Of a DNA stretch of 64,000 nt, positions 33,093 through 52,082 are shown piece by piece. The DNA is from Candidatus Scalindua japonica (GTDB taxonomy: Bacteria > Planctomycetota > Brocadiia > Brocadiales > Scalinduaceae). The translations under genes and the position numbers were made by a program. Every line of letters begins with the position of its first letter. Position 1 is the first letter of the stretch. Location of the stretch: positions 372,001-436,000 of the forward strand of contig NZ_BAOS01000028.1 in NCBI RefSeq assembly GCF_002443295.1, written 5' to 3'. The notes under the pieces were generated by a model. That model was not told the origin of the DNA. It worked only from the letters and a program-made list of their open reading frames with translations, and ran no database searches.

Positions 33093-33979
33093 CTAATTTT
33101 TATTTCCGATAATGCCTATCTTTGGCCTCTTATTTAAGGTATTCAAAGCCCTGATTACATCATATCCAAATATTTCCGGCATAGCCATGTCACACAAAAC
33201 GAGGTCAAATCCTTCTTTCTCTGTCTGTTTTATTGCATTTGCGCCATTGTTGACAGTCAGAACTTTGTAACCGGCTTTTGAAAGAAAATTGTCCAGAATA
33301 CTGCATATGTCCTCATCATCATCTACAACAAGAACACTCAAATCATTCCCTTTTACTTTTTGTTCTGAGATAGGCGGTTTTGTGGGATTGACGGTTTTCT
33401 CTGCTATCGGAAGTTCCAAAGTAAATGTACAACCCTTCCCCAATTCACTTTCGACATCAATTATCCCTCCATGTCTGGCCATTATTCCATAAGCAGTGCT
33501 CATGCCCAAACCGGTCCCTGCTGCAGACTTTGTAGTAAAAAATGGCTCGAAAACCCTCTTCTTCACCTCTTCAGGCATTCCTGTACCCGTGTCGGAAATA
33601 GTAATAAATACCGTTTCCGGTTCACACCACGTACTAAATGAAAGTTGGCCACCATCAGGCATGGCATCCATGGCATTATTGATTTTGTTTATAAATACTT
33701 CTCTTAATTCTGTAGGATTACACAATATGGAAGGTGTCTTCAGCATTCCGTTTCTATCCATGGAGTAGTCAATGCCTCTGGACTGTGCCATATTTTTCCA
33801 CCGGGGCATTGTAAAATCGATTGATTGTTCTATCAGCTCACCTATATCATAAGATATAAACTCTGTGTCACCTTGAAATTTTCCAGTAAATTTAAGCATC
33901 TTGCCGGAAATCTCAGACCCATCATCAGTTGCCTTTTTAATAGTATGGAGCCTGTCTGTTAATTCACCATTCTCTTTAT
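33093..33979 (-). pseudogene. Truncated copy of the hybrid histidine kinase gene
   Basis: Matches 49749-50620 of the intact kinase gene with only about four differences over 872 bases and no gap. It encodes from the HisKA region through the ATPase domain (DTGTGMPEE, GLGMSTAYG) into the last receiver, then ends in a foreign tail (GIIGNKN). The N-terminal REC, GAF, PAS and the phospho-acceptor His are missing, so it is not a working kinase. It abuts CRISPR array 1 (17 bases). Confidence 0.88.
33108..33979. repeat. 872-bp direct repeat, left copy
   Basis: Pairs with 49749-50620, same orientation, constant offset of 16641 bases. Outside these limits the sequences differ completely. The two copies bracket the whole CRISPR-Cas island. 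Confidence 0.92.
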
Positions 33980-33996: not shown

Positions 33997-34184
33997 GTCT
34001 CAATCCCTTATTCATCAGGTCAAGTATTCCTACGGCTAACCTTAAGAACGCTAACCTTGAGAACGCTAACCTTAGTCTCAATCCCTTATTCATCAGGTCA
34101 AGTATTCCTACGTCTTAAGCCAACTAGAATATGTCGAACGTGTTTTGGTCTCAATCCCTTATTCATCAGGTCAAGTATTCCTAC
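33997..34184 (-). CRISPR. CRISPR array 1: three 37-bp repeats, two spacers
   Basis: Repeats at 33997-34033, 34075-34111 and 34148-34184 are identical, beginning GTCTCAATCCC and ending TATTCCTAC on the plus strand. Spacers are 34034-34074 (41) and 34112-34147 (36). The leader-like sequence lies on the right (34185 onward), so it is transcribed leftwards with the cas genes. Spacer 1 encodes a pentapeptide-repeat pattern on the plus strand. Confidence 0.96.
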
Positions 34185-34400
34185 TGTACCCCTTCTAACA
34201 CCTGTTCCAGCATATACTTACAATGCCATTTCCTGTAACCTGTCCAATCTGTAATCATTTCACCTCCAAATTTTCTGTAAAAATTTAATAAAATGCTCAT
34301 AAATACCTATCAGTTATCATGTTAAGATTTTCCTGTAACCTACCCCCTTTTTACCTGTTTTCAAAAGCTTCGTTAAGTTATCAATAAAAAAAGGCTTATA
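34185..34400 (-). promoter_or_regulatory. Leader of CRISPR array 1
   Basis: Closely matches 39145-39340, the sequence beside array 2, over about 190 bases, including CCATTTCCTGTAACCT and ATCAGTTATCATGTTA. Conservation next to two arrays on the same side marks the leader and promoter. It lies between cas2 and array 1. Confidence 0.8.
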
Positions 34401-34465: not shown

Positions 34466-34741
34466 TTACACAATATAAACTTCTTCATCTTTGGACACCT
34501 TTCCCTGTCCGATCACTTTGATTATCTTTTCACAATTTGCACAGATAGAGTAGATCCTGATACTATCTGCCTCTTCTTTAGCTATTTTATGAATTCTTTT
34601 CACCATTTTGTCAAGGAGTTTGTTATCCAGTATACACTCAAAGACACTGTATTGCACCCGGTCACCATAATCTTTCAGTATCTTGGCAAGCTTTGTACGC
34701 CTTTTCGTGTCAGGTATATCGTAAGATACAAGGTAAAACAT
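34466..34741 (-). CDS. cas2: Cas2, CRISPR adaptation protein
   Basis: 91 residues, normal length. It begins MFYLVSYDIPDTKRRTKLAK with the conserved Asp after the first strand, then VQYSVFECIL and IRIYSICANC. Cas2 dimers hold two Cas1 dimers in the spacer integrase. The gene starts 3 bases after cas1 ends, so they are co-translated. Array 1 lies immediately downstream. Confidence 0.96.
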   Translation of the reverse strand: MFYLVSYDIPDTKRRTKLAKILKDYGDRVQYSVFECILDNKLLDKMVKRIHKIAKEEADSIRIYSICANCEKIIKVIGQGKVSKDEEVYIV

Positions 34742-34744
34742 GAA

Positions 34745-35746
34745 TTATGCTTTCAATTCAAAGGGGACATAAGGCCTTTCATTTTGAATGTGCGCGGCAA
34801 GTGTTTCTGCCTGTATGCGAAAACACTTTCTCCAGGTACTGTTTTCTCCAGTATTTGGATGGACAAATTCACGATTTATCATTTTTTCATACTCTCTAAA
34901 ATATCGCTTTAACGGTTCGCGTTTGAGATAAACACCGCCACCTTTAGGGTTGGCGTAGAAATCTGCCTCTCCTATAATTCGGTTGTTTACGAGATAGAGA
35001 GTAAACCGGTCGGCAATCGGAGCACGAAACTCCTCCATAAGGTCAGATGCCAGGGAAGCCCTGCCGTAATCTATACTATGGAAATACGCAAGATACGGAT
35101 CAAATCCAATCCCATCAAGAAGAGAAGATATTTCGTTAAAGATGATTGTGTAGCCGAAAGAGAGAAGAGCGTTCACGGGATCAGTAGAAGGGTGCTTCCT
35201 TCTTCCGGTAAATTCTAAAGTTTCAAGAAACATTTTGCCATATGCATCAAAATACGACTTAGCCGCGCTTCCCTCAATACCAAAGAGTTGTTCTATTTGT
35301 GTTATATTTTCCACTTCTCTAAGCCTGGCGGAGATGGCGCTGTTTTCTGATTTAAAATCTCTGTCAGGATGATTGTAAGAGAACCATCTCATTACCTGTA
35401 GAGAATTCTTAATCTTTCCAGCAACAATCTTTTTTGCAAACGCCAGCCGAAATCCATAATCCCCATATTTATTAAACTGCGATATCCGAAGGTCTATATT
35501 TTTTGTTGCCGGAGATGTTATCTGACCGATCAGTTTTCCAGTTCGCGTAAGAATAGCCATCTCAATTCCGTGCTCAAAAAGCTCATGCACAGATTGAGTG
35601 GTAAACTGTACGTTTCCAAAGATCAGCACCGCATCGATTTTATGACACTGTACATCGAGTAATATCTCATCATCCTTTTCTACTATAAGCCTGTCGCCTG
35701 TTTTCCGAAGGATTGAACCCTGTTCCGTAAGATACAAATTAGCCAT
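34745..35746 (-). CDS. cas1: Cas1, spacer integrase
   Basis: 333 residues. The N-terminal beta domain (LYLTEQGSILRKTGDRLIVE) is followed by the helical catalytic domain: LLSFGYTIIFNEISSLLDGI with the catalytic Glu, YLAYFHSIDYGRASLASDLM with the catalytic His, and ADFYANPKGGGVYLKRE. It integrates prespacers at the leader-repeat junction. It is not fused to the reverse transcriptase, which is a separate gene just upstream. A REP hairpin (35754-35783) separates the two. Confidence 0.96.
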   Translation of the reverse strand: MANLYLTEQGSILRKTGDRLIVEKDDEILLDVQCHKIDAVLIFGNVQFTTQSVHELFEHGIEMAILTRTGKLIGQITSPATKNIDLRISQFNKYGDYGFRLAFAKKIVAGKIKNSLQVMRWFSYNHPDRDFKSENSAISARLREVENITQIEQLFGIEGSAAKSYFDAYGKMFLETLEFTGRRKHPSTDPVNALLSFGYTIIFNEISSLLDGIGFDPYLAYFHSIDYGRASLASDLMEEFRAPIADRFTLYLVNNRIIGEADFYANPKGGGVYLKREPLKRYFREYEKMINREFVHPNTGENSTWRKCFRIQAETLAAHIQNERPYVPFELKA

Positions 35747-35753
35747 AGTTTCT

Positions 35754-35783
35754 GTAGGGGCAGACCAATGTGTCTGCCCCTAC
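35754..35783. repeat. REP-type hairpin (REP-1)
   Basis: GTAGGGGCAGAC-CAATGT-GTCTGCCCCTAC: a perfect 12-bp stem with a 6-base loop. It supplies the TAG stop codon of the reverse transcriptase gene. It is the best-preserved of six copies in 35.7-38.7 kb. Confidence 0.93.
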
Positions 35784-36706
35784 CATCCTTTATTTTTTTT
35801 TAAAAAATAGATCGGCAGATTCAAAGGCCGTGGATAATGAAGGATTTTTTTCTCCCTTTTGGGCTTATCAAAGGGGACCATCGTCATGCTCTTTATAAAC
35901 GTAACACCCAGGAATGTAAAACCATCATCAAAGTTTACAATCTCCGCTTCGTCAAGCTCAAGCGAGAGCCGGTCCAGAATCCTGTCAGTAAGTTTCAGCG
36001 CGTTTACCGCCTCCTCTCTATTGCGGGAAAGTATAACAAAATCATCTGAAAACCTTACCAGCTTGTGTCCGTTCCTTAATAACTCTTCATCAAATTTATC
36101 CAGAAAGAGGTTTGCCAGGATAGGCGAAATAGCGGACCCTTGAGGGATCCCTATCTTCAGTGTTTCCACAGATTTTCCATCCCACACTTCTGCCTTAACC
36201 CACATAGTAATTAAACGACGGATATCCTTGTCTTTAATAATCCGTTTGACTTTTTTAATAAGAACATCATGATCGACGTTATCAAAAAACGCGTCAATAT
36301 CCGCGTCAACCGCCCATGTATATCCATCCGCGTAATATTCGCTGATTTTATAGACGGCCTGTTTTACGGACCTTCCCTTTCTATAGGCATAACTGCACTG
36401 TTCAAATTCCGCTTCAAAAAACGGTCTGGTGATCTCAAGTACCGCCGTTTGCACAACTCTATCCTTTACCGTGGGAACAGACAGCGCCCTGGCTTCACCG
36501 TTACCTTTATCTACCAGTATCCTGAGCAGAGGTAAGGGCTGGTACGACGCCATTAAGAGTTCACTCCTCAGCGTGTCAATATTCCGTTTAATTCTCTCAT
36601 CAAATTTTTCTACCGTGACACCGTCCACCCCAGCGCAACCGCGGTTTCCCCTGACCCGTTCAAAGGCGGATTGTAATGTAGTTTGTCTGGTGATTTCTTT
36701 AAACAT
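35780..36706 (-). CDS. CRISPR-associated reverse transcriptase
   Basis: About 308 residues from MFKEITRQTT (36706); the 11 residues before it are translated from REP sequence. RT motifs: GVDGVTVEKF, RALSVPTVKDRVVQTAV, AVDADIDAFFDNVDHDVL (catalytic Asp), GIPQGSAISPILANLFLD and RFSDDFVILS (catalytic DD, with Ser where Ala is usual). No maturase or Cas1 fusion. Sitting directly before cas1-cas2, it probably copies RNA for spacer acquisition, as shown for other RT-Cas1 type III systems; that role here is inference. A retron or group II origin is less likely since there is no maturase domain. Confidence 0.88.
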   Translation of the reverse strand: MFKEITRQTTLQSAFERVRGNRGCAGVDGVTVEKFDERIKRNIDTLRSELLMASYQPLPLLRILVDKGNGEARALSVPTVKDRVVQTAVLEITRPFFEAEFEQCSYAYRKGRSVKQAVYKISEYYADGYTWAVDADIDAFFDNVDHDVLIKKVKRIIKDKDIRRLITMWVKAEVWDGKSVETLKIGIPQGSAISPILANLFLDKFDEELLRNGHKLVRFSDDFVILSRNREEAVNALKLTDRILDRLSLELDEAEIVNFDDGFTFLGVTFIKSMTMVPFDKPKREKKILHYPRPLNLPIYFLKKNKGW

Positions 36707-36727
36707 ATTTCCTGTACGGTTAAACCT

Positions 36728-36755
36728 GTGGGCAGACACATGGGTCTGCCCCTAC
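36728..36755. repeat. REP-type hairpin (REP-2)
   Basis: GTGGGCAGAC-ACATGG-GTCTGCCCCTAC, one mismatch from REP-1's stem. It covers the end of the RAYT gene, including its stop, and the start of the RT transcript. Confidence 0.88.
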
Positions 36756-37435
36756 GGGTTCACATTATTATATATCACGTTTTCAATGTAGTCCCATTTC
36801 TTGTCATAATCTTTATCCTTAATATGTTCCGGGTTTTCCCTGTCATATTGCCATTTCATTGGATTGTTTATTATGTATTCCCGGATACGGTCCAGACTAT
36901 CTTCATTTCGAACAATATGCTCATAATAATTGCGTTGCCAGAACCTTTTGTTAAATGGTTTCCAATTAACATTTTTTACATTTCTGATATATTCATTTGT
37001 TGTCATGGTTTTAAACCATTGCATATGTTGCGGTAAGCCCCGTAGGGGCAAACCAATGTGTTTGCTCTTAATCATCTCCCTGTTTTTACGCGTAGGGTAG
37101 TCTGTGGGGCAGACACACTGGTCTGCCCCTACGGACACGGATGGTCCATTTATTATGATTATTCCGTGCATATGGTTGGGCATGATAATATATTCGTCTA
37201 ATGAAATTGTAGAATATTTTTCAGGTAATACGGACCACCATTTTTCAACCATCTCACCGGCATCATTCAAAACAGTTTTACTCTCTATTGCTTCGCCCAG
37301 CAAACACTCTTTGTCCTGAAGGCATATGGTAACAAAGTACGCACCTTCCCGTGAATAATCATATTCTTTGAGGCGGATAGAACGCCGGCCATGTTTTGTT
37401 TTCACGTTTTCCGTATGGTTCACTATTTCCATCAC
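36752..37435 (-). CDS. REP-associated tyrosine transposase (RAYT, Y1/HUH family)
   Basis: 227 residues. HUH motif in IIMPNHMHGIIII and a Tyr in NYYEHIVRNEDSLDRIREYI followed by NNPMKW, the classic RAYT C-terminus. RAYTs are single-strand nucleases that move REP hairpins. The segment between them (GADQCVCPT..., KHIGLPLRGLP) is translated from two REP copies lying inside the gene (37042-37070, 37104-37132) that keep the frame open. The start overlaps csx3's stop by 4 bases. Whether the enzyme still works with REP inserts is unclear. Confidence 0.85.
   Translation of the reverse strand: MMEIVNHTENVKTKHGRRSIRLKEYDYSREGAYFVTICLQDKECLLGEAIESKTVLNDAGEMVEKWWSVLPEKYSTISLDEYIIMPNHMHGIIIINGPSVSVGADQCVCPTDYPTRKNREMIKSKHIGLPLRGLPQHMQWFKTMTTNEYIRNVKNVNWKPFNKRFWQRNYYEHIVRNEDSLDRIREYIINNPMKWQYDRENPEHIKDKDYDKKWDYIENVIYNNVNP
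37042..37070. repeat. REP-type hairpin (REP-3), inside the RAYT gene
   Basis: Degenerate copy GTAGGGGCAAACCAATGTGT then TTGCTCTTA. The left arm is intact and the right arm decayed. Confidence 0.7.
37104..37132. repeat. REP-type hairpin (REP-4), inside the RAYT gene
   Basis: GTGGGGCAGAC-ACACTG-GTCTGCCCCTAC-like copy with near-perfect arms, in frame within the transposase coding sequence. Confidence 0.85.
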
Positions 37436-37683
37436 ATGGGATTATGGTTAAAAATCACTACGTCGCCGGTAACTGGAGACCGATAAATGAGTTTTCTTGC
37501 TTTGCCATGTAACGCGTGAGCAATTTTCAGGTAGAGCCAGACCGGGGCCTTGCCTGTCAGAATTATGTCATTCCCCTCACCCGCCTGTTCTAACGCGCGG
37601 TTGATATAATCAGGTAAATCAGACAGTTTGGCGGTGTTGTTGTAAAAAGTTTCAAGATTAATAGCTGTTTTTTTAAATTTCAC
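37432..37683 (-). CDS. csx3: Csx3-like protein (possible cyclic-oligoadenylate ring nuclease)
   Basis: 83 residues. IILTGKAPVWLYLKIAHALH then KARKLIYRSPVTGDVVIFNH fits the Csx3 core (VV.SG..P.WL...AH..H......Y.P...G.VV...H). Csx3 (Crn3) degrades cA4, the type III second messenger. Compared with the archaeal enzyme as I recall it, this one is shorter at the C-terminus and the YDPR position reads YRSP, so catalysis is uncertain. Its start overlaps the stop of the membrane CARF gene by 4 bases, pairing effector with possible off-switch. Confidence 0.72.
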   Translation of the reverse strand: MKFKKTAINLETFYNNTAKLSDLPDYINRALEQAGEGNDIILTGKAPVWLYLKIAHALHGKARKLIYRSPVTGDVVIFNHNPM

Positions 37684-38567
37684 AAGCCAAATTCCCTTGG
37701 TTCTGAAGAAGTAAGCAGGACATCATAACTGAGCACATCCCATGGTTGGTTCGTTGAGACATATTGCGCTTTTATTACACGGTTAAATGTCATCGATGCT
37801 CCTACAATACTGGTAGGCTTCTGTCCGCTTGTAATGTCAATCATAATCTGACTTTCAGAATATTTATATTTTCTGAACTTACGCATCAAAAACCACATAG
37901 CTTGTGATAATTCATCAAAACTTTGAAAATTAAAACCATTCAAGTCGGCAATATCCTTTTCTGAAAACATATCAACAAGGAGAGGTTTACCTTGCTTTTG
38001 TGCAAGCAGGTAAATTTTATCTAAATTATTAAACCTGTATCTTTCAAAGATTTTTGCAAACAAATTAACCTGTGATATTGATTCTTTAGAACATACCAGA
38101 GTGAGTGTTTTTAATTTTTTTTGATGATGCTGTATTGCCCTTAAAGGCATCTCCCATGCCCAGCGCAGAGGAAGAGCGCCTTTCTTCAGTTTTTCAATCT
38201 TTTCTAAATCTTTGTCAATATTCTGCGAAAGCTGGAGATTGTCAGGGACACCATCTGATTCTTCAAGGTCCTTCGGTAGATTTGAAAGGAATAATACAAG
38301 ATGTTCTCTCTCCTCGGCCTCTTCGTTTGAAATATATCTTGTACGGGGATGAAATATATTGTCCTTTTGTCGGATCAATAAATATACCATTCCTATGAAA
38401 AATACAAGATAACAGATCTTTGTAATAAAAACGGCGGTTTCACTCCCATGAGACCATTCTGCGACAGTTTCCATTACGGCATCGGCGGCAAAATGTGAGC
38501 CAAGTACCGTTAAAGCCATGGTAGCCCAAGGTACCAATTCCAGACATTTCATTTGAAACGGTTTCAT
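37680..38567 (-). CDS. Membrane-anchored CARF-domain protein (putative cOA-gated effector)
   Basis: About 295 residues from MKPFQMKCLELV (38567); the open frame to 38681 above it is REP-derived (RHMGLPLQGG). Two hydrophobic helices at the N-terminus (WATMALTVLGSHFAADAVM and FITKICYLVFFIGMVYLLI), then a cytosolic part from EHLVLFLSNLPKDLEE. The CARF signature is MIDITSGQKPTSIVGASMTF near the end. No nuclease domain is seen. By position and CARF motif it should sense cyclic oligoadenylate made by Cas10; the membrane helices suggest it acts on the membrane, in the manner of Cam1-type effectors. It is coupled to csx3. Confidence 0.75.
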   Translation of the reverse strand: MKPFQMKCLELVPWATMALTVLGSHFAADAVMETVAEWSHGSETAVFITKICYLVFFIGMVYLLIRQKDNIFHPRTRYISNEEAEEREHLVLFLSNLPKDLEESDGVPDNLQLSQNIDKDLEKIEKLKKGALPLRWAWEMPLRAIQHHQKKLKTLTLVCSKESISQVNLFAKIFERYRFNNLDKIYLLAQKQGKPLLVDMFSEKDIADLNGFNFQSFDELSQAMWFLMRKFRKYKYSESQIMIDITSGQKPTSIVGASMTFNRVIKAQYVSTNQPWDVLSYDVLLTSSEPREFGL

Positions 38568-38593
38568 TTGTTTTTCAAAATAATTTCCCCCTT

Positions 38594-38622
38594 GTAAGGG
38601 CAGACCCATGTGTCTGTCCTTT
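38594..38622. repeat. REP-type hairpin (REP-5)
   Basis: GTAAGGGCAGACCCATGTGT then CTGTCCTTT: REP copy with decayed right arm, upstream of the CARF gene. Confidence 0.75.
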
Positions 38623-38667
38623 TTTGTCACCCATATGTCTCCCCTTTTCGTGGCCCATGTGTTTATC

Positions 38668-38697
38668 CATGGGGCAGACACACGGGTCTGCCCCTAC
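38668..38697. repeat. REP-type hairpin (REP-6)
   Basis: ATGGGGCAGAC-ACACGG-GTCTGCCCCTAC. Between REP-5 and REP-6 (38625-38665) are further worn REP-like pieces. Confidence 0.85.
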
Positions 38698-38804: not shown

Positions 38805-39144
38805 TTTTCAATCCCTTCTACATCAGGTCAAGTATTCCTACTCAAAGAGTCGGATCGAATGAACGAAAGAAGTTTTGTTTCGTCGCAATCCCTTATTCAT
38901 CAGGTCAAGTATTCCTACAAGACGAGAACTGGTATTTCTTTTGATGATTTATTTGTCGCAATCCCTTATTCATCAGGTCAAGTATTCCTACGAAATGGCT
39001 AAGTGTATCAAACAGTTACCAGATCGACTGGTCGCAATCCCTTATTCATCAGGTCAAGTATTCCTACGGTAGTACAGGGAATTAATAAGGTCAGTAGTGT
39101 ATTTATCGTCGCAATCCCTTATTCATCAGGTCAAGTATTCCTAC
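38805..39144 (-). CRISPR. CRISPR array 2: five 37-bp repeats, four spacers
   Basis: Repeats at 38805-38841 (degenerate), 38882-38918, 38955-38991, 39031-39067 and 39108-39144. They begin GTCGCAATCCC, one base different from array 1 (GTCTC). Spacers: 38842-38881, 38919-38954, 38992-39030, 39068-39107 (36-40 bases). The worn repeat is on the left and the leader on the right (39145 on), so transcription is leftward and new spacers enter at 39144. Confidence 0.97.
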
Positions 39145-39340
39145 GTACCCCTTCTAACACCTCTTCCAACATGCACTTACAAGGCCATTTCCTGTAACCT
39201 ATCCAATCTGTAATCATTTCACCTCAAAATTGTCTGTAAATATTTAATAAAATGCTCATAAACACCTATCAGTTATCATGTTACGATTTTCCTGTAACCT
39301 ACCCCCTTTTTACCAGTTTTTAAAAGTTCCGTTAACATAT
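39145..39340 (-). promoter_or_regulatory. Leader of CRISPR array 2
   Basis: Parallel to the array 1 leader with few differences (for example GTTACGATTTTCCTGTAACC versus GTTAAG...). It carries two CCTGTAACCT copies, about 115 bases apart. No gene lies in 39145-39444. Confidence 0.8.
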
Positions 39341-40292: not shown

Positions 40293-40667
40293 CTTAGAAA
40301 AAACTTTTAGTTTTTTAAAATTACTACCCGGCTCTTCAATAATTTTTCTAATCTCATCTTCCCTGTCAGTTTCCGTACCTGTAAAAAATGTATAATTTTT
40401 TGGGTCAATTGTAAAGTTCATCCATTCATATAAGTTTTCATTAAATTCATTAACATCGTTTTGCACCACGGAAACAGAATAAAACTTTTTCCATGAATGG
40501 TATTCTAAATGTCGAAGTTTATCTAATAATATCGTATGCAACCCTTCTTCTTGAATTTTATTTTTAGCACGTTTAATCTCATCGACAAACGAATTGTCAC
40601 TCACGTTATTAACGAAATCATCAAACTTTTGTTGAGAATCTAATGCTTCCATAATTTTGTTACTCAT
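40284..40667 (-). CDS. Unrecognised helical protein, CARF-coupled (N-terminal part of a split gene)
   Basis: 127 residues, soluble, charged and helical: MSNKIMEALDSQQKFDDFVN at the start, LRHLEYHSWKKFYSVSV midway. It ends at TAA 40284-40286 directly after a run of seven T (minus strand). Re-reading one T there (a -1 shift) continues straight into the six-helix membrane protein, giving about 400 residues in total. The start overlaps the CARF gene's stop (ATGA). No known family. Probably the cytosolic neck linking the CARF protein to the membrane part. Confidence 0.6.
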   Translation of the reverse strand: MSNKIMEALDSQQKFDDFVNNVSDNSFVDEIKRAKNKIQEEGLHTILLDKLRHLEYHSWKKFYSVSVVQNDVNEFNENLYEWMNFTIDPKNYTFFTGTETDREDEIRKIIEEPGSNFKKLKVFSKFF

Positions 40668-41428
40668 CTGCTTTCCCGGAGGTCCATAGGAATGTATCTT
40701 TTGAAATTTTCTGGAATTTCATCCTTGGTTATCTCATTTTTTTTTAATTGTTCAATGATTTTATTAATTTCAGTCGGATTAACTAATTTTTTTATAAATT
40801 CAGTACCTGGCACAGGTTTATCATTTACATATGTTTCACAGTCAATATAAAATGAATCCAGGTTTTTAATCCCGCAAGCAATATATGCTCCACTCACCAT
40901 TGGTTTTTTGCCGCCGGTAATATCAACGGCTATTTCTGTGGTTTGTATCCCACGTTGATTTTCACTAGCAATAATTGAATATATTTTTTTACAAGTATCG
41001 GAAGGTTCTGAACTATCTACCTTCAGCTTATAATTGTCATCATGCCAATTATCTTCATCAAAAAATTCAATATCATTGCTGCAATCTGAAAGATCACTGC
41101 TTATCTTTTTGCACCAGTATGTAATTTCATAACATTTGTCCTTACTGTCTTTTGAAAAGAGCAGAATAACTCTTTGAGCTTTAAGTGCGAATATAGATAA
41201 AATAATTGGTTGAATAGAGAAACCTACTAACAAAATATGTGTTTTGTATTTTTTCTGAATGTTGCCAAGCAGTTTTTCCGTTAATTTATTATAAGTCTTC
41301 TTGAAAATACTATCAGCAGTGACCTTGTTTTCTTCGTTATTATTAGTGAAATAGAAGTTTAATTTGTCTTTTGGTGAGACAATTCTCTCCAGTTTCAACC
41401 GCTGTTCTTCTGTTACTAAATTATTCAT
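40664..41428 (-). CDS. CARF-domain protein without attached effector domain
   Basis: 254 residues. The Rossmann-like CARF core has HILLVGFSIQPIILSIFALK, VILLFSKDS, and the signature EIAVDITGGKKPMVSGAYIA. About 60 residues follow with no nuclease, HEPN or protease signature. It lies 88 bases after csm5 and overlaps the next gene by 4, so it is expressed with the Csm genes. I infer that it senses cyclic oligoadenylate and passes the signal to the two downstream products. Ring-nuclease activity is an alternative. Confidence 0.78.
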   Translation of the reverse strand: MNNLVTEEQRLKLERIVSPKDKLNFYFTNNNEENKVTADSIFKKTYNKLTEKLLGNIQKKYKTHILLVGFSIQPIILSIFALKAQRVILLFSKDSKDKCYEITYWCKKISSDLSDCSNDIEFFDEDNWHDDNYKLKVDSSEPSDTCKKIYSIIASENQRGIQTTEIAVDITGGKKPMVSGAYIACGIKNLDSFYIDCETYVNDKPVPGTEFIKKLVNPTEINKIIEQLKKNEITKDEIPENFKRYIPMDLRESR

Positions 41429-41516: not shown

Positions 41517-42785
41517 CTAACTGAATTTCATCCAGCCCAATGGCTTTGTAACTTGATTGTTTTTGTATATTAATCGTCTTGATTTTGGAGCGGGACAATC
41601 TTTTTTATCGACAAACATATGGTTTCTCAGTTTTTTTTGTGAGATATCATCTAAAAGCATGTCGATTGTCATACCCATTAGCCCGGTACCCCAGCCAATC
41701 CTGAATTTATGTTCGTAGTTATTATTTCTATAGAAATCTTGAACATCAGAAATATTCAATTGATCATTTAAGCAATTATCAAAAAAATTTTTTTCAAACA
41801 TCCAGAGATCTTGACTAAATTGTCTTACTAAATTAAAGATACCCTTAATATCCGAAAAGGGAATATTGTATTTTTTTCGTTTAAATTCTTTAAGTAGTAC
41901 GCGATCAATTGTAATGAGAAAATTAGTTTCACCTGTAAAAGTTTCTATCTCAAAGTCGATGGGCTGCTCTTTTTTGTCCAATTTCATTTTTATTGTAAAT
42001 TTATCTGCTAATTGTAACTTGTCGTGCGTGGGCTTTTTGTTTGTAATATTATTAAGTCCCTTTAATGAAACAAGTACAACCTTGTGCATATTCATATTTG
42101 CCAACCTTTTTGTATCTTTAACTTTGACACATCTAAGAAAGTCTGATTTAGTATCCATTCTTGTTTTACCGTTTTGAAAGATGAATAGAGATAATTGCTG
42201 AGAAAATCTGCTTTTTTCAATATCTTTTTGCCTCGGTGACATATTTTTTGTTTTTTGTATAAAATCCGATATTTTGCTGCTAATATTATCTAAAAACGAT
42301 TTAACAATATTTGATTCCTTGTGCTTCAGAAATTCTTTTGCCATATGATACATTACTGCAGTGCGAATAACCCCTTTAATGGAACTCCCAGGTATTATAG
42401 GTTGACCAGGTCCATTTTTTATAAACATGTTTCCTCTTGTTGCATTTACTAATGATTTAAAAACACCAAACTCAATTAGTTCTTTCTCATTTTCTTTCTT
42501 GTTCTTAGTATGGTAAATCCCCGTATCAAAAAGGAATTTTTCGTTATCAAATTTGTTAAGTTTTCCTTTGTTAGTATATTCTTCAATCTGATTTACATAT
42601 TTTGTTACTAATGAGAGATCGTTAGTCTTTTGAAAAAGGTATTCTACCAGTCTGTTTGAGTCTATGGCAAAAGCAGTCTCATTGTTGCGCCTGACAAATC
42701 CTTGTCCATAATCTATATCTTTTCCTTTGATATGAATGGGAGTAATTGTTTTTATGTTTACTACTTTGTTTTCTAAAAAGTTCAT
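41517..42785 (-). CDS. csm5: Csm5, type III-A effector subunit
   Basis: 422 residues. RAMP-fold markers: TITPIHIKGKDIDYGQGFVR, glycine-rich PGQPIIPGSSIKGVIRTAVM, and the family's C-terminal CPAPKSRRL...PLGWMKF. Csm5 caps the complex at the crRNA 3' end and recruits nucleases for crRNA trimming. Its start overlaps csm4's stop by 4 bases. Confidence 0.93.
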   Translation of the reverse strand: MNFLENKVVNIKTITPIHIKGKDIDYGQGFVRRNNETAFAIDSNRLVEYLFQKTNDLSLVTKYVNQIEEYTNKGKLNKFDNEKFLFDTGIYHTKNKKENEKELIEFGVFKSLVNATRGNMFIKNGPGQPIIPGSSIKGVIRTAVMYHMAKEFLKHKESNIVKSFLDNISSKISDFIQKTKNMSPRQKDIEKSRFSQQLSLFIFQNGKTRMDTKSDFLRCVKVKDTKRLANMNMHKVVLVSLKGLNNITNKKPTHDKLQLADKFTIKMKLDKKEQPIDFEIETFTGETNFLITIDRVLLKEFKRKKYNIPFSDIKGIFNLVRQFSQDLWMFEKNFFDNCLNDQLNISDVQDFYRNNNYEHKFRIGWGTGLMGMTIDMLLDDISQKKLRNHMFVDKKDCPAPKSRRLIYKNNQVTKPLGWMKFS

Positions 42786-43855
42786 TTTATTTTCTCACAA
42801 AATGGAATAGCGAATGGTAATCCGTTTCTAAAAATTCTATGCTTGTTAAACTCTTGAGGAGTAACGTTGACTAAGTTTCCTCGCAATTCAGAGGCGAATA
42901 TAGAGCCTTCGGAGAACATGTAACAAGTCTTACGTTTTAATTGTTCATAAGAAGAGGAAGAAAAAGACCATCCTTTTCTTTGCGTAAGATCATAAGCTAT
43001 GCTTTTTAATTTACGAACATCATCCGGAAAGAACAGTGAAAATATATAATAAAACTCTGATTTAATTTTGAACATTTCACAAAACCTTGCTCTACCAGGT
43101 ATTTTCTGGTCAGAAAAAGAAGGGTTTAGTCTCCTCTGTTCTTTCGCAGTTTCAATGTCAATACAAAACCAATCATTATCTGAAAAATCAAACAAACCGC
43201 ATCCAGATGTCCTCCTGCCTCCTAATCCATTATATTTTAGTACATCCATCAATTTTTTGAAATCGTCAAATGAGAATTCTTCCTCATCAAGATCAAGTAA
43301 GAAAAAAGGTTTGATATCTTTCAGGTAAAATACAATACCTGTATGATATATCTGTGCTGCATGGGAAACGCTTTGTGTTACATTCTGAGTTCTGCTCTCT
43401 TCTACCCAGAATAAAGATTTGTCTTCATCAAGTATAGCTTTTAGATCAAGAGGTTCATTGCGTTGCCATTTTTGGAATGTTTCAATAGAAATAAATTTTC
43501 GATTTTTAAATTCCTTTCCAAATTCATATTTTTGTTTATCATCGATTAAGTTTTCCGGCAAGATAAGTGGTTTTGGTATAAAATATCTGTGGCTGGATTG
43601 GCTAGTATCTACAAATCCAAAAGAAGAGACCCTGAAGGGGACATAAATATTATCTTCATTAATAGTTTTGTTTAAAAGGTTTTTGATCCATTGTTTTTGG
43701 TTAAATATGTGACTAATAGACGCCAGCGTATTAATCAAGCCGCTAAATATTGTATCTGAGTGGGCAATACCCTGGACATCTTCAACCCCATATCCGGCAA
43801 CGTCTGACCCGAAATGTACACCATTTCGAAAATTCAACTCAATAACATATTTCAT
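42782..43855 (-). CDS. csm4: Csm4, type III-A effector subunit
   Basis: 357 residues. N-terminal LNFRNGVHFGSDVAGYGVED and AHSDTIFSGLINTLASI, then GLGGRRTSGCGLFDF (glycine-rich loop of RAMPs). Csm4 binds the crRNA 5' handle and holds Cas10. It is followed by csm5 (4-base overlap) and preceded by csm3 after a 59-base gap. Confidence 0.92.
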   Translation of the reverse strand: MKYVIELNFRNGVHFGSDVAGYGVEDVQGIAHSDTIFSGLINTLASISHIFNQKQWIKNLLNKTINEDNIYVPFRVSSFGFVDTSQSSHRYFIPKPLILPENLIDDKQKYEFGKEFKNRKFISIETFQKWQRNEPLDLKAILDEDKSLFWVEESRTQNVTQSVSHAAQIYHTGIVFYLKDIKPFFLLDLDEEEFSFDDFKKLMDVLKYNGLGGRRTSGCGLFDFSDNDWFCIDIETAKEQRRLNPSFSDQKIPGRARFCEMFKIKSEFYYIFSLFFPDDVRKLKSIAYDLTQRKGWSFSSSSYEQLKRKTCYMFSEGSIFASELRGNLVNVTPQEFNKHRIFRNGLPFAIPFCEKIK

Positions 43856-43914: not shown

Positions 43915-44802
43915 TTAACTCTTGACTAATGATTTAAGATTATCGAAATTGTTTACCCTCAGTTCTTCCAAGTCAGAGATAATATTCCCTTCCTTTTCAG
44001 GCAAAAATAATTCTGAACCTCCTCCTATTTTATAATATTTACATTCCTCTATAGTTAATGAGAATTCCACTTGGCCATAACCCCTGGAAACAGAGCCACC
44101 AAGACCGTCTTTTTCTATAAGACTTAATGCTTCAAAGATATTTTGAATATCTTTGGATAAGTGTTCTAAGTCGTTTTCCAAAAACTTTTGATTTTCATTA
44201 TTATACTCAGTAATTACTTGCACTTTGTAAACAATTTCAAACTCAAAGTTTGCACCAGCAGGAACACGTTCAATTGTCCTTGGGTTTGCAGAAGCAGTGA
44301 TACGATCAATTGCATTTTCCATTTTTGCTTCAAATATATACAATGCATCTTGTTTGATTTTCTCCTCATTCATTAATTTGCAATCACGAACTATTATACG
44401 TGCGGGGTGATTACGGCCTCCATTGTCTCCGGTCGCCCCATAGATTCTACATACACAACAGTTTTTGGAACCTTTATTGTCATCTTCTTTATATGAATAG
44501 TCAATATCATCACACACATGCTGTTTTACTTGATTCTGTCTGGTTCCTGAAGATCGATTAAATTTGAAGCTTCTGTCAGTTACAGCAATTTGTTTTTCAG
44601 TAAAACTTCTCATTTTTCCTTTTAAGGAACTTCCAGGAATGTAAGGGGCGCCTGTAACAGGATGTTTGATTACCGGTGAATCGATTCCTCCTATCTCAAC
44701 AGTATCTGACGATGCTCCTATATGGAGTCCTGTAATTACATCAATAGTCCCTTTAATAATTATATTACCTAATAACCCAATGTTATATTCCTTCTTGCCC
44801 AT
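43915..44802 (-). CDS. csm3: Csm3, backbone RNase subunit
   Basis: 295 residues, a little longer than common Csm3. GLHIGASSDTVEIGGIDSPV contains the Asp (about residue 41) that aligns with the catalytic D33 of the Streptococcus protein, so target-RNA cutting every 6 bases is expected. PYIPGSSLKGKMRSF, NAIDRITASANPRTIERVPA and GGSVSRGYGQVEF are family motifs. An insert with NCCVCRIYGATGDNG (about 110-130) may bind metal. Confidence 0.95.
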   Translation of the reverse strand: MGKKEYNIGLLGNIIIKGTIDVITGLHIGASSDTVEIGGIDSPVIKHPVTGAPYIPGSSLKGKMRSFTEKQIAVTDRSFKFNRSSGTRQNQVKQHVCDDIDYSYKEDDNKGSKNCCVCRIYGATGDNGGRNHPARIIVRDCKLMNEEKIKQDALYIFEAKMENAIDRITASANPRTIERVPAGANFEFEIVYKVQVITEYNNENQKFLENDLEHLSKDIQNIFEALSLIEKDGLGGSVSRGYGQVEFSLTIEECKYYKIGGGSELFLPEKEGNIISDLEELRVNNFDNLKSLVKS

Positions 44803-44821: not shown

Positions 44822-45271
44822 TTATGTTGAAGCTTTATGAAATGCTACCACTGATTCAAAGAACATGGCAAATTGGTAAAAATCATCTTTATCAGTAACC
44901 TTTTTTATCATGCTTGTGCAAATACTTGAAAATTCCCTTAAATCTCTTTTCTTGGCACTCGCATTTGCCAGTTGAGGTCTAAGCATCAATAATTTTGCCT
45001 TTTCTACATCAGTGAATTCATTTTGCTTATCAACACATAATTTAATATTTTTTACGGCATTAAAAAATCGTCTAATTTGATGGGTTTCAATTCTTCTTAA
45101 ATGATCCTGAGCACAACATTCCGCAAAATCTATTAATGATTCCAGTTCGAATTCCGAAAGTTTTTTTATTTTGTTTAATTTTTCCTCTATACCACCTGAT
45201 GCCGTTGGTTTCCTTTTTTCTCCTTTATACTGTATTTCCCCCCACTTCTGTGCTTTATTTTGATTTTTCAT
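44822..45271 (-). CDS. csm2: Csm2, small subunit
   Basis: 149 residues, all-helical. LRRIETHQIRRFFNAVKNIK and LLMLRPQLANASAKKRDLRE are the Csm2 hallmarks. Copies line the filament opposite Csm3 and contact the target RNA. It starts 3 bases after cas10 ends. Confidence 0.93.
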   Translation of the reverse strand: MKNQNKAQKWGEIQYKGEKRKPTASGGIEEKLNKIKKLSEFELESLIDFAECCAQDHLRRIETHQIRRFFNAVKNIKLCVDKQNEFTDVEKAKLLMLRPQLANASAKKRDLREFSSICTSMIKKVTDKDDFYQFAMFFESVVAFHKAST

Positions 45272-45273
45272 TA

Positions 45274-47481
45274 TTACTCTCCTTTGCCTCGTTGTAAAAG
45301 CTCAATCCATGTTAATGGAATTTTAATGGATCTGATTGTTTTGTGTTTATTGTTTTTTGCCGGTAATGTAATAAGCATATTCTGAAGTTCGGTTACTTGT
45401 ACATTAAAATCGGGATTTCCATTATGGAGAATTCTTGAAAATAAATAGATTACATTTGGTACATATAGCGTGTTTTCCCCCCACCATATATCAGCAATTT
45501 TAAATAGTTTGTACACAAAACCGCTGGAAATCCCCTGGAGTTCCAATCTATTATCTTCTTTTTTACACAGAGGTACAAATTTTTCTACTATTTCAATAGT
45601 AGTTGTATCATGCCAGGGTATGGCATGAACTATTTTATCCTGAAAATTTTGTATACCATTTCTCAGATCATTTGTCGCCTGAATATTTAATTGTTGGCCC
45701 ATATGCCTATAATATTGAGAGAAAAAAATTGCAACTTTGTTTTTTGAAGGTACTATCTCATTTGAAAGTAGAAATGATTTGGATTCATTCTCTGCCTCCC
45801 CGCTCAATTTTGCCATCTGGTAAAGAGGATATTTGGCTTTGTGGATTGTTAGACCAGCAGAAATGCCGAGCCCTGAAAACCGCACAAAACAGCGCTGAAT
45901 ATCATAACTGAGCTCTGCTACTTCATCCCATGCACCAATAATAAACAGATCGTCACCTCCCGCATAGACTATTGAAACATTTCTGCCACCGCTTTGTTTA
46001 TAATTTTTGTTTGTCAAGTCAGTAGGTTCAATCTCTTCTCCATTTTCATCTATTCCTAAATCACCTTTACAAATTTTGGTAAGATACACTTTGAAGAAGA
46101 TATTCAACATCTTTGATATATTGGCGAGATGTGGTAGTGTAAATGGTTCCAGGTTATGGATGACTTTACCCATATTATCAACATCCATCCGCAAACAGGC
46201 AATGAAATCTGCACCACATGAGGCATTGGCAAGGCCCATAAATGATGCCGTCATTCTTGCTTCGTTTTTATGATCAAGTTCTTTATTGTGTTCTTTTTGA
46301 AATTCATCCCTCTCTTTTTCTTTTGCCGTTAAAGGCAGATCCGCTACATTTCTGACATAATTCGCATAAAAGAACGGTATGCAACCCTCCTTGTTATCTT
46401 CAGGCGCATTGATTTTCCATTTGCAATCAATGTCAATATTTTTTTTACTGTTGTCATTGTAGAAATTTTTATCCACTGTGTAATAAGCAAAACCCCCGTT
46501 TATATCAGGAAATTTGATATAAGGGTTTTCTTTACTCTCAAACCCTGCTTCATGTTTTTTAGATGTACGGTAGATATAATTAAAATCCGTTAGTTCGTCT
46601 CCTAATTTGTACAAATGGAAGCAGAGTGAATGGGCAACATTAATGCCATTCACCTCTTCTTTAAACTGTTGTGGTTCGATCCGTTCGAAGGTGTTTAAGT
46701 TATAGAAAGGTTCTTTTAAAAGATCTATATCATCTCGGTGGCAAATCTGACACTCTTCTCTATTGGTTTTTTGTTCCGGCTCCCTGTTAAATGCTCCACT
46801 GAATAGAGTATTCAAATTCCATTTGAACTTCTGATTCTTGTCTCTATCTAATTCTTTCTGGATGACATTGCTCCACATATGCCTAAAATTATCCTGATGT
46901 AAATTATTATCATTTAATTCCGTAGAAACCATAGAAATGTAGAGCTTTCCAGAAAATTCTTCAAAAGCCCAGTTATTGATTTTTTTCTTTAATTCTTCTA
47001 CCTTCTTCTCTGTCCCGTTATTGGGAAGTAAAAGGCAAAATGAACCACCACCGGAGAAGACAATATTCTCCAGATTATCATTATATTTTCCGAAATATTC
47101 TGTAATTAGTTCATAGCATAAGTGTTCGCAAAGTAGCTCCAACATAAACGATCTTGCCCTCAACGATTTCAGGGCACCTTTTGAAGATATGGTGTAAACC
47201 GTATTCTGGATTCCCGAGAGTTCTCCGTAAACTAATACGTACGGAGAAATGACCGCCTTTGATTTTTCTTTACAACGTTCTAATGCTGTTTTTATACTTT
47301 CAGCTTCGGGCAAATTTGTGGTGTCAGCGATGTTTACATCTTGCCGTTCCGGGTAAGAGATAGAATCAATTGTGAAGTTTTTGAAAACAGCATTTTCCGG
47401 GTAACTGCTTTCCACCGGTTGGTATTTGCTGTCAATCAATGCAAAGATTGACTTAGTATATCTGTTGTTTTCTGTTTCCAT
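45274..47481 (-). CDS. cas10: Cas10 (Csm1) lacking the HD nuclease domain
   Basis: 735 residues. The first palm domain includes VLVYGELSGIQNTVYTISSK and LEN.VFSGGGSFCLLLPN; a partial zinc motif is at ECQICH; the second palm has the cyclase motif VYAGGDDLFIIGAWDE (near residue 520). There is no HD-type nuclease domain before the first palm: the protein starts directly with ~70 linker residues, and the 5' flank (47482-47640) encodes none. Prediction: no DNase, but active synthesis of cyclic oligoadenylates on target binding. This fits the CARF genes downstream. Confidence 0.95.
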   Translation of the reverse strand: METENNRYTKSIFALIDSKYQPVESSYPENAVFKNFTIDSISYPERQDVNIADTTNLPEAESIKTALERCKEKSKAVISPYVLVYGELSGIQNTVYTISSKGALKSLRARSFMLELLCEHLCYELITEYFGKYNDNLENIVFSGGGSFCLLLPNNGTEKKVEELKKKINNWAFEEFSGKLYISMVSTELNDNNLHQDNFRHMWSNVIQKELDRDKNQKFKWNLNTLFSGAFNREPEQKTNREECQICHRDDIDLLKEPFYNLNTFERIEPQQFKEEVNGINVAHSLCFHLYKLGDELTDFNYIYRTSKKHEAGFESKENPYIKFPDINGGFAYYTVDKNFYNDNSKKNIDIDCKWKINAPEDNKEGCIPFFYANYVRNVADLPLTAKEKERDEFQKEHNKELDHKNEARMTASFMGLANASCGADFIACLRMDVDNMGKVIHNLEPFTLPHLANISKMLNIFFKVYLTKICKGDLGIDENGEEIEPTDLTNKNYKQSGGRNVSIVYAGGDDLFIIGAWDEVAELSYDIQRCFVRFSGLGISAGLTIHKAKYPLYQMAKLSGEAENESKSFLLSNEIVPSKNKVAIFFSQYYRHMGQQLNIQATNDLRNGIQNFQDKIVHAIPWHDTTTIEIVEKFVPLCKKEDNRLELQGISSGFVYKLFKIADIWWGENTLYVPNVIYLFSRILHNGNPDFNVQVTELQNMLITLPAKNNKHKTIRSIKIPLTWIELLQRGKGE

Positions 47482-48010: not shown

Positions 48011-49066
48011 TCAATTAAAAGACACAACTGCTTTCAATGCATCATCGTTATTTATAACCTTATATTTCCCAAGCCCATAAACCGTACCCTTTCCAACATG
48101 GATATACTCACCAAGAGCTACCAATGGCATAACCTCTTCGATATCCCCTTCAAAAACGGTTTTGCCAATGAACCCACCCATCTTCATCCTTGTCTCCTGC
48201 CTTGCCGAATAGCGTTGCCAATCGTACCATCTTGTTTTTCGTTCTGTACACGTTATGCTCTCTGCCTTTTCTATGAGTGCTTTGAAGTCCAGATCAAGCA
48301 ACTCGTCACAATGGAAATAGGAGAGGGATGATACTCGTCTCAGGAGCGTCCTTATCATGTGATGGAATTCCAACTCTTTAACCAATCTTTCTTTAAATAC
48401 CATTCTGGTGGGGGTAAGAAATTCAATTGTTATTTTAGAGAGTGAATTGTTCAGGGGTGAAATGTCCTTTGCCGTCATAACCCGGAAATGATTATGCAGA
48501 ATTTTCTCCTCACCGGAATAGATTATACTATTCTTAATCGCAGCTTCACTTCTCTCTTCTTGATCTGATCCTTCAACCTCTGACGTTACTGATTTGAGAT
48601 GAAATTTACCTTTTCCTTTCCCGATACCTATTCTGCCGAGTTCATCAAAGGTGTAGATAAAGTAAGGAAGGTATTGGATCGCTTTACCGATAAGGACAAG
48701 ATCAAACGTTATCTCTTCACCTTTTTTGAATAAACGTTGTAAGGTAAGCGCAGGTTCTATCACAAATGGGTGTGGAACGTTTTTATACAGTCTGAGGATC
48801 TCTGTCTCTTCAGGTGGAGAGGTTTCAAAGATGTAAGAGTAGACGCACGTGGCCTTTACCATGCAGTCATTACACTCCTTTCCCTTTTGGATACAAACCA
48901 CTCTCTTAAAGGCGTGGCCAAAGCCGCCGCGAAGTGTAGAGCCTTTGTATAACGGCAAATGTATCTCTTCAAGTGTTAAGAGGTTAAATTGAAACCTTGA
49001 GATTGTAAGGTTTTGCGGGACACATTTTATGTTCTTTGTCTTCAACATGAAATCCTGATTTAACAT
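48011..49066 (-). CDS. cas6: Cas6, pre-crRNA processing endoribonuclease
   Basis: 351 residues. It begins with the RAMP-like part LPLYKGSTLRGGFGHAFKRV and a CxxC-rich stretch (CNDCMVKATCVYSYIF), and ends with the glycine-rich loop GEYIHVGKGTVYGLGKYKV of the PF10040 Cas6 group. It cuts array transcripts within the repeat. It is the first gene of the island and is set apart from cas10 by 529 bases. Confidence 0.9.
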   Translation of the reverse strand: MLNQDFMLKTKNIKCVPQNLTISRFQFNLLTLEEIHLPLYKGSTLRGGFGHAFKRVVCIQKGKECNDCMVKATCVYSYIFETSPPEETEILRLYKNVPHPFVIEPALTLQRLFKKGEEITFDLVLIGKAIQYLPYFIYTFDELGRIGIGKGKGKFHLKSVTSEVEGSDQEERSEAAIKNSIIYSGEEKILHNHFRVMTAKDISPLNNSLSKITIEFLTPTRMVFKERLVKELEFHHMIRTLLRRVSSLSYFHCDELLDLDFKALIEKAESITCTERKTRWYDWQRYSARQETRMKMGGFIGKTVFEGDIEEVMPLVALGEYIHVGKGTVYGLGKYKVINNDDALKAVVSFN

Positions 49067-49604: not shown

Positions 49605-52082
49605 TTAAACTCTGCATATAGATTGTTCGGCGTTAATTACATCGTTGATTTGCCTGGTTAAATCTGAAAAATTAAAAGGTTTTCTGAGAATAAAGTCTAC
49701 TCTACAGATCTTATCAAGTTTAGGTTTGAGTTTTTCTCCACATCCTGTGATAATGCCTATCTTTGGCCTCTTATTTAAGGTATTCAAAGCCCTGATTACA
49801 TCATATCCAAATATTTCCGGCATAGCCATGTCACACAAAACGAGGTCAAATCCTTCTTTCTCTGTCTGTTTTATTGCATTTGCGCCATTGTTGACAGTCA
49901 GAACTTTGTAACCGGCTTTTGAAAGAAAATTGTCCAGAATACTGCATATGTCCTCATCATCATCTACAACAAGAACACTCAAATCATTCCCTTTTACTTT
50001 TTGTTCTGAGATAGGCGGTTTTGTGGGATTGACGGTTTTCTCTGCTATCGGAAGTTCCAAAGTAAATGTACAACCCTTCCCCAATTCACTTTCGACATCA
50101 ATTATCCCTCCATGTCTGGCCATTATTCCATAAGCAGTGCTCATGCCCAAACCGGTCCCTGCTGCAGACTTTGTAGTAAAAAATGGCTCGAAAACCCTCT
50201 TCTTCACCTCTTCAGGCATTCCTGTACCCGTGTCGGAAATAGTAATAAATACCGTTTCCGGTTCACACCACGTACTAAATGAAAGTTGGCCACCATCAGG
50301 CATGGCATCCATGGCATTATTGATTATGTTTATAAATACTTCTCTTAATTCTGTAGGATTACACAATATGGAAGGTGTCTTCAGCATTCCGTTTCTATCC
50401 ATGGAGTAGTCAATGCCTCTGGACTGTGCCATATTTTTCCACCGGGGCATTGTAAAATCGATTGATTGTTCTATCAGCTCACCTATATCATAAGATATAA
50501 ACTCTGTGTCACCTTGAAATTTTCCAGTAAATTTAAGCATCTTACCGGAAATCTCAGACCCATCATCAGTTGCCTTCTTAATAGTATGGAGCCTGTCTGT
50601 TAATTCACCATCCTCTTTATAGCTGTCCTCCAACAACTGTGCATTGCCCGAGATGATTGTAAGAACATTATTAAATTCATGCACAATCCCCGCGGTTATT
50701 GCTCCAATGGATTTCAGTTTTTCTGATTTCAAGAGCGCTTCCTTCATTTTTATTTGCTCAGAGATGTCTTGACCAACTGCTTGAAACTCGTCTAATCGAC
50801 CGTTATTATCAAAGATTGCCCGGCATACCCATTGTTGCCAGGAAATTGTACCGTCAAAAAGAACGATACGCTGCTCGTAGGTTACAATAGGATCATCGAA
50901 AGTAAGCGAATTAATCTTGTCCCAGACCAGCTTACAGTCCTCCTGCATTACTGAAATAAAAAAATTACTCCCCATGAGTTTTTCGCGAGATTGTTCAAGA
51001 GAACGGCAATACGCGTCGTTAGCGAAGGTAAGCTTACCGTCCGGTAAAAACCTGACAATGTACTCAGTCTGATCTTCGGCAATAGCCTTGAAACGTTTTT
51101 CATTTTTCTGTAGCTCTTCTGTTGCGTGGAGTGTAAGTAGAGCCCCTGTACATATGGAGGTAAAGATCAGGCCGATTTCCAGATCCTGCTTTGTAAAAGG
51201 CAGGCATCTTTTGTTGTGAAACGTAAATATGCCTATCAATTTCTGCTTTTCACTTATAAGGGGAAATACCATAAGTGAATCGTCATTATATCCTCCCCAT
51301 CCACTTCTTTTAAACCTGCTTTCTTCTTTTATATTCATTATATGAACAGGTTTGTGCTCTTTTATAACATAACCCAGAATGCTGTCATCAGAGAGTGGCA
51401 ATAGTATGGATGAGGGTGCGTGGCCCGGATCAAGTGAGTGGGCAAGTTCTAGTCTGTTTTCCTTATGAAGGAAGAGGCTTCCTCCGTCCGCAGTTATGTT
51501 TCTGGCAAATTTTTCAAGAAGGAGTTTGCTGAGTTTATCCTGATGGTTATAAGAAGTAACTGCCTTTGCAGACTCAGCCATCAAGTCCAGCCTCGTGCTC
51601 ATTTCCATTAATTTACCGGTTTGTTCTTTAAGGGACTTTTGTGCCAGAGATTTTTCGTTTTCCAAATTAATCTTATCAAAGCACCTGTTTATAGTTAACA
51701 AAAGATCCGGTGCTTCAACAGGCTTTAGCAGATAGTCATAAGCACCCTCCTTAAGCACCTGAAAAGCCTTGTTCAGGTCTGCATAAGATGACATCAATAT
51801 GCAGAGAATCTCAGGTTTTGTTGTTTTAAGTTCAGAAATCAAATTAATACTGGCAGGCATTCCTAAACGGAAATCTATAAGGACCAGATGCGCGTTAAAG
51901 ACCTGGAGCCTATTGCTGATATCTTTTGCATTATACGAAGTTTCAACCACATAACCATGCGAACTCAGGATATCAAGCAGTATATTAAGCAGGCTATCTC
52001 CTGATTTGCTATTGTCATGCACTACTAAGATACGTCTTTCAATAGTTTCGTGTTGTGAATATGGGTTATTCTTTTTTCTCAT
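49605..52082 (-). CDS. Hybrid histidine kinase (REC-GAF-PAS-HisKA-HATPase-REC)
   Basis: 825 residues, soluble. First receiver ~15-135 (LVLIDFRLGMPAS, LLKPVEA), GAF ~175-335 (GGSLFLHKENRLELAHSLDP), PAS ~345-460, HisKA with the His in AGIVHEFNNVLTIISGNAQL (near 480), ATPase domain (DTGTGMPEE, GTGLGMSTAYG), final receiver ~695-815 (VVDDDEDIC, LVLCDMAMPE, RKPFNF). An internal 872-base piece is duplicated at 33108-33979. It borders the CRISPR-Cas island and shows no sign of belonging to it. Confidence 0.93.
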   Translation of the reverse strand: MRKKNNPYSQHETIERRILVVHDNSKSGDSLLNILLDILSSHGYVVETSYNAKDISNRLQVFNAHLVLIDFRLGMPASINLISELKTTKPEILCILMSSYADLNKAFQVLKEGAYDYLLKPVEAPDLLLTINRCFDKINLENEKSLAQKSLKEQTGKLMEMSTRLDLMAESAKAVTSYNHQDKLSKLLLEKFARNITADGGSLFLHKENRLELAHSLDPGHAPSSILLPLSDDSILGYVIKEHKPVHIMNIKEESRFKRSGWGGYNDDSLMVFPLISEKQKLIGIFTFHNKRCLPFTKQDLEIGLIFTSICTGALLTLHATEELQKNEKRFKAIAEDQTEYIVRFLPDGKLTFANDAYCRSLEQSREKLMGSNFFISVMQEDCKLVWDKINSLTFDDPIVTYEQRIVLFDGTISWQQWVCRAIFDNNGRLDEFQAVGQDISEQIKMKEALLKSEKLKSIGAITAGIVHEFNNVLTIISGNAQLLEDSYKEDGELTDRLHTIKKATDDGSEISGKMLKFTGKFQGDTEFISYDIGELIEQSIDFTMPRWKNMAQSRGIDYSMDRNGMLKTPSILCNPTELREVFINIINNAMDAMPDGGQLSFSTWCEPETVFITISDTGTGMPEEVKKRVFEPFFTTKSAAGTGLGMSTAYGIMARHGGIIDVESELGKGCTFTLELPIAEKTVNPTKPPISEQKVKGNDLSVLVVDDDEDICSILDNFLSKAGYKVLTVNNGANAIKQTEKEGFDLVLCDMAMPEIFGYDVIRALNTLNKRPKIGIITGCGEKLKPKLDKICRVDFILRKPFNFSDLTRQINDVINAEQSICRV
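49749..50620. repeat. 872-bp direct repeat, right copy (inside the kinase gene)
   Basis: The parent copy of the 33108-33979 repeat. The differences noted include T/A at 33683 versus 50324, G/A at 33903 versus 50544 and T/C near 33937 versus 50578. Confidence 0.92.

Follow-up and report, generated by a model that had tools for sequence, protein, structure and literature searches.

A CRISPR spacer that reads as pentapeptide-repeat code in a type III-A locus of Candidatus Scalindua japonica with a separate reverse transcriptase

Organization of the locus

The window is the whole stretch of DNA analyzed, 64,000 nucleotides of contig NZ_BAOS01000028.1 (positions 372,001 to 436,000), and all coordinates are counted from its first letter. 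The genome encodes hydrazine synthase alpha, which marks its owner as an anammox planctomycete. The features of the locus are listed below.

33997–34033, minus strand: CRISPR repeat, 37 nt, crRNA sense GTAGGAATACTTGACCTGATGAATAAGGGATTGAGAC
34034–34074, crRNA sense minus strand: leader-distal spacer of array 1, pentapeptide code ANLKNANLENANL on the plus strand
34075–34111, minus strand: CRISPR repeat, array 1
34112–34147, minus strand: second spacer of array 1, 36 nt
34148–34184, minus strand: leader-proximal CRISPR repeat of array 1
34186–34381, minus strand: leader of array 1, 91% identical to 39145–39340, conserved in anammox relatives
34478–34744, minus strand: cas2 (PF09827)
34745–35746, minus strand: cas1 (PF01867)
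35780–36739, minus strand: separate, CRISPR-associated reverse transcriptase (RT) of group II intron type with the catalytic motif FSDD
36752–37435, minus strand: IS200-type (Y1) transposase
37680–38681, minus strand: CARF protein with TM segments (Csx1/CARF_TM models)
38805–39144, minus strand: CRISPR array 2, same repeat family, 4 spacers
40664–41428, minus strand: CARF protein, matching the CARF part only of CARF-HEPN models
41517–42785, minus strand: csm5
42782–43855, minus strand: csm4
43915–44802, minus strand: RAMP protein, csm3 by position
44822–45271, minus strand: csm2 (PF03750)
45274–47481, minus strand: cas10/csm1, GGDD present, N-terminal HD domain absent
48011–49066, minus strand: cas6 (PF10040)

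The listed cas, RT, CARF and transposase genes are all on the minus strand, in the order cas2, cas1, RT, IS200-type transposase, CARF-TM protein, array 2, a possible membrane protein, CARF protein, csm5, csm4, RAMP, csm2, cas10 and cas6. Genes for Cas10/Csm1 and csm2 to csm5 lie in one operon, as expected of type III-A. TIGR02578 was matched at 365 bits (cut-off 170), and matches to Csm2, Csm4, Csm5 and RAMP models were also obtained. The GGDD cyclase motif of Cas10 is present (YAGGDDLFII in the translation). The protein appears to be without the HD nuclease, given that no HD frame was found upstream and that the match to the Csm1 model starts at position 219 of 753. Note that the HD domain of Cas10 is common in type III-A systems but not universal, and hence not decisive for membership. 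With a GGDD-bearing, HD-less Cas10/Csm1 encoded beside two CARF proteins, this is probably a signalling-only type III-A system.

The RT (315 bits against the PADLOC CRISPR-context RT model) is of the CRISPR clade, and its gene is adjacent to cas1. Its closest relatives, at 54–86% identity, come from 11 further genomes within the order, and all 11 of these also carry the same repeat or the repeat plus leader. RT and array are on one contig, within a few kilobases of each other, in ten of the 11; in the remaining genome, G014, the RT is split between two contigs, and the array is on one of these.

The entire type III CRISPR module is bracketed by the two copies of an 872-bp direct duplicate (33108–33979 and 49749–50620, 99.5% identity), which corresponds to the 3′ portion of a gene for a hybrid histidine kinase, intact at 49605–52082. 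These copies suggest that the region was rearranged recently or that the duplication arose in assembly. Six copies of a short repeat of the form GGGGCAGACxxxxxxGTCTGCCCC are scattered between the cas genes (35754–38696); they adjoin the IS200-like (Y1) transposase at 36752–37435 and look like REP-type elements.

Direction of array transcription

Array 1 consists of three repeats and two spacers. The 196-bp stretch immediately to its right (34186–34381) recurs to the right of array 2 (39145–39340) with 91% identity, and in about ten relatives repeat plus leader align over about 195–234 bases at 68–83% identity. The leftmost repeat is degenerate in array 2 and in many of the relatives' arrays, and leader-distal repeats are usually the degenerate ones. 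Read on the minus strand (crRNA sense), the repeat ends in ATTGAGAC, and this sequence at the end of a repeat is the usual 8-nt crRNA tag. Taken together, the conserved right-hand leader, the degenerate leftmost repeats and the minus-strand tag indicate leftward transcription, and crRNAs from such a transcript would carry the tag AUUGAGAC. A leftward array 1 makes the crRNA antisense to the pentapeptide reading described below, and the first-pass annotation, which had proposed both the direction and the antisense relation to a pentapeptide-repeat mRNA, is borne out by leader, degenerate repeats and tag. What was there called “spacer 1” is the leader-distal spacer and so presumably the older of the two.

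The pentapeptide reading of the spacer

The sequence at 34034–34074 is a true 41-nt spacer, GGCTAACCTTAAGAACGCTAACCTTGAGAACGCTAACCTTA, flanked by identical 37-nt repeats at 33997–34033 and 34075–34111. Frame 2 of its plus strand gives ANLKNANLENANL: from base 2 the codons are GCT AAC CTT AAG AAC GCT AAC CTT GAG AAC GCT AAC CTT, which translate to the 13 residues ANLKN ANLEN ANL, that is, tandem A-(N/D)-L-x-x units as in pentapeptide-repeat proteins (PF00805). Frame 1 contains stops, frame 3 gives LTLRT, and the reverse strand gives KVSVL and RLAFS. Adjacent 15-nt units within the spacer are identical at 14 of 15 positions, and self-identity at an offset of 15 nt is 23/26, where the maximum in 200,000 shuffles was 17.

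For comparison, 220 unique spacers were collected from the arrays of the window and from relatives' arrays of the same repeat family (30 related loci), calling repeats at a threshold of 25/37 matches, so that a few degenerate ends may be included. The spacer at 34034–34074 is the sole strongly periodic one in this set (0.88, against 0.67 for the next best at any period), and even a loose pentapeptide pattern was found in no other of the 220. The reading as pentapeptide-repeat code is therefore right, as first proposed, and unusually clear: reading frame, 15-nt period and the best motif matches, given below, all agree. The crRNA shows no unusual folding (z −1.5).

Searches for a protospacer

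Exact 40-mer, 27-mer and 21-mer cores of the spacer gave no match in IMG/VR, and a wobble-tolerant 39-mer gave none in genome contigs. Allowing up to 3 mismatches, the array itself was the only match to the 40-mer in 98 genomes and to a 30-nt core in 294 genomes including its own, which leaves none in the 293 relatives. No protospacer was found in phage and plasmid records. Phage BLAST matches (the phi29 connector and others) covered only 54–76% of the query, with E values between 0.6 and 8, and were discounted as chance matches. One plasmid match, at 81.6% identity and E 0.5, extended over most of the spacer; it lies in a Nostoc pentapeptide gene and was rejected as motif similarity only. Searches of viruses, plasmids and the host genome, by which the first-pass annotation had proposed to check its reading, yielded motif matches to pentapeptide genes but no perfect protospacer. 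Two other spacers, from array 2, had no exact match in IMG/VR, and the arrays of two relatives had no phage match.

Pentapeptide genes sharing the motif

IMG/VR and the GTDB genomes each yielded 75 stretches with the pattern GCTAACCTT-N6-GCTAACCTT-N6-GCTAACCTT. The best matches, on viral and genome contigs, all translate to ANLxx-type units on the same strand as predicted, and the ANLxx frame is the longest of the six in 121 of the 150 stretches. A complete want of matches to pentapeptide-repeat genes, which would have spoken against the reading, was thus not encountered: the best DNA matches are such genes. The highest identity to the spacer reached anywhere was 36/41. Viral matches at this level were considered as protospacers and rejected, since in a leave-one-out test 99.3% of 446 real motif units matched another contig at 36/41 or better (values raised by the inclusion of related contigs in this null). 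A score of 36/41 is therefore no evidence of source and reflects motif similarity only.

One example is the IMG/VR phage contig L037. Its 192-residue ANLKN/ANLEY repeat protein is encoded next to a gene for single-strand binding protein, and genes for terminase, portal and helicase lie close by. Against the repeat-protein gene the spacer has six registers that match at 35/41 and 21 that reach at least 30/41; on a model target of 16 units it finds 13 registers at 36/41 or better. The suggestion that a repetitive spacer may match many sites holds to this extent within a single phage gene.

Source of the spacer

We consider it likely, with a probability of about 0.7, that this III-A system with a separate RT retains in the spacer an old record of a pentapeptide-repeat gene, one that belonged to a phage or other mobile element not yet sequenced. 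A phage or other mobile element is the most likely source that we infer. Because genes of the same kind are also common in cellular genomes (Methanosarcina, Moorena and Nostoc), phage origin can be put no higher than this, and it is accordingly weighed here against a cellular pentapeptide gene, whether the organism's own, a lost paralogue or DNA of another bacterium, sampled by accident as self or bystander. The genome has about seven pentapeptide-repeat genes of its own, and genes of the GCTAACCTT type are frequent in Methanosarcina and cyanobacteria. Against this, the organism's own genes match the spacer at 29/41 at most, only one in 62 of their units is GCTAACCTT, and their neighbouring units share a mean of 8.2 of 15 bases (maximum 11), much less than the units of the spacer. 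A 24-mer core with up to 3 mismatches was found in the own genome within the array only, no near-perfect match lies elsewhere in that genome, and the relatives also have none. The idea that the spacer could target a self gene family is therefore not supported, given these values and the 30-nt core found, with up to 3 mismatches, in the array only. Neighbouring units of the phage examples, which were pre-selected by motif, share a mean of 12.2/15 bases. At the level of DNA, the near-identical units of the spacer (14/15) resemble these pre-selected phage examples and not the host genes, and with unit identities of 14 against 12.2 for phage and 8.2 for host, a recently amplified, phage-like repeat gene is the more likely source. 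We accordingly regard a cellular origin as unlikely. It is highly improbable that the pentapeptide reading is coincidental and that the spacer derives from a non-coding 15-nt minisatellite or is read in another frame or strand; the LTLRT, KVSVL and RLAFS frames are open too, but each of the top motif matches lies in a pentapeptide gene and on the strand that was predicted.

A different account concerns the route of acquisition rather than the donor: the neighbouring RT may have copied the spacer from a highly transcribed pentapeptide mRNA, its orientation being a record of that event. We hold this to be improbable, more so than a cellular source. The CRISPR-clade RT does lie beside Cas1 and Cas2, the same RT clade and repeat occur together in 11 other genomes, and RT-Cas1 fusions do take spacers from RNA (PMC5576922; PMC11014452). 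The Marinomonas RT-Cas1, however, acquires spacers in both orientations, with an antisense preference that is only marginal once interference is removed (PMC5576922). Nor is coding-strand bias any stronger in RT-linked arrays (50/87, against 92/133 for the others, in a split that rests on possibly fragmented contigs), and from one spacer acquisition and selection are indistinguishable. The first-pass annotation had taken the orientation as what RNA-derived acquisition would give; the 50/87 versus 92/133 comparison and the two orientations seen in Marinomonas leave that part of it unsupported.

Strand bias in the repeat family

Interference by type III systems selects for antisense orientation. 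The orientation of this spacer fits type III targeting but is no guide to whether it was acquired from RNA. In the set of 220 spacers, the strand paired by the crRNA has a purine fraction of 0.540 (array-level bootstrap 95% interval 0.524–0.558), measured in this repeat family alone. By a codon measure that strand is coding-like in 140 of the 220 (p 6e-5); strand calls were 83% correct on coding 38-mers, which belong to the training set. A cruder test of spacer strand by stop codons gave no signal (p 0.41). Note that several strand measures were tried, and that the two with a signal, codon and purine, are those given as support. In the relative L221, the spacer at 1625 of the reverse complement, AAAAAATATAATGAATATAAGGAGAATATAGAGAATGAC, resembles a ribosome-binding site plus start codon in sense orientation.

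Proposed mode of action and comparison with known systems

If the memory is of a mobile pentapeptide-repeat gene, as we prefer, the established type III sequence of Cas6 processing, Csm recognition and Cas10 signalling can be read onto the genes of this locus. Cas6 would cut the leftward array transcript, and the Csm complex with its crRNA would pair with the sense mRNA of the pentapeptide-repeat target gene. With the target made up of 15-nt units in tandem, a single mRNA could offer the same crRNA many registers for pairing. Cas10 would answer mainly by making cyclic oligoadenylate, activating the CARF proteins encoded beside it; such a response is probable, rather than DNA cutting, because Cas10 keeps GGDD and is without the HD domain. 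It is a long shot that RT-linked type III arrays take up tandem-repeat mRNAs and that the resulting multivalent crRNAs, binding one transcript in many registers, enhance the cyclic oligoadenylate signal of an HD-less Cas10.

The locus was compared with type III systems whose CRISPR-associated RT is fused with Cas1 or lies next to it (Marinomonas RT-Cas1; the clades of Toro et al. 2018, PMC6013744; Silas et al. 2017, PMC5513706). It shares with them Cas1, Cas2, a group II intron-type RT, a type III effector with its own arrays, and spacers without identifiable protospacers. Unlike Marinomonas RT-Cas1, it has a separate RT gene, a III-A effector with an HD-less Cas10, and an anammox planctomycete as host. 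Csm2 to Csm5, Cas10/Csm1, Cas6 and CARF effectors are as in a type III-A Csm system, from which it differs in the missing N-terminal HD domain of Cas10. The plus strand of the spacer encodes A-N-L-x-x units like phage and cellular pentapeptide-repeat genes (PF00805), here limited to 13 residues that lie within a spacer and not a gene. This is a new spacer in a system of a known kind.

The sources of RT-linked type III spacers were called enigmatic by Silas et al. 2017 (PMC5513706). Here the repeat code of the target allows a spacer to be assigned to a gene family even though its protospacer is missing, and that assignment narrows the search for such sources. The 220 spacers provide a test at the level of the family, in which the crRNAs tend to be antisense to the coding strand. 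Elsewhere in the window, at 5209–5490, a 141-bp unit is duplicated in tandem with 91% identity.
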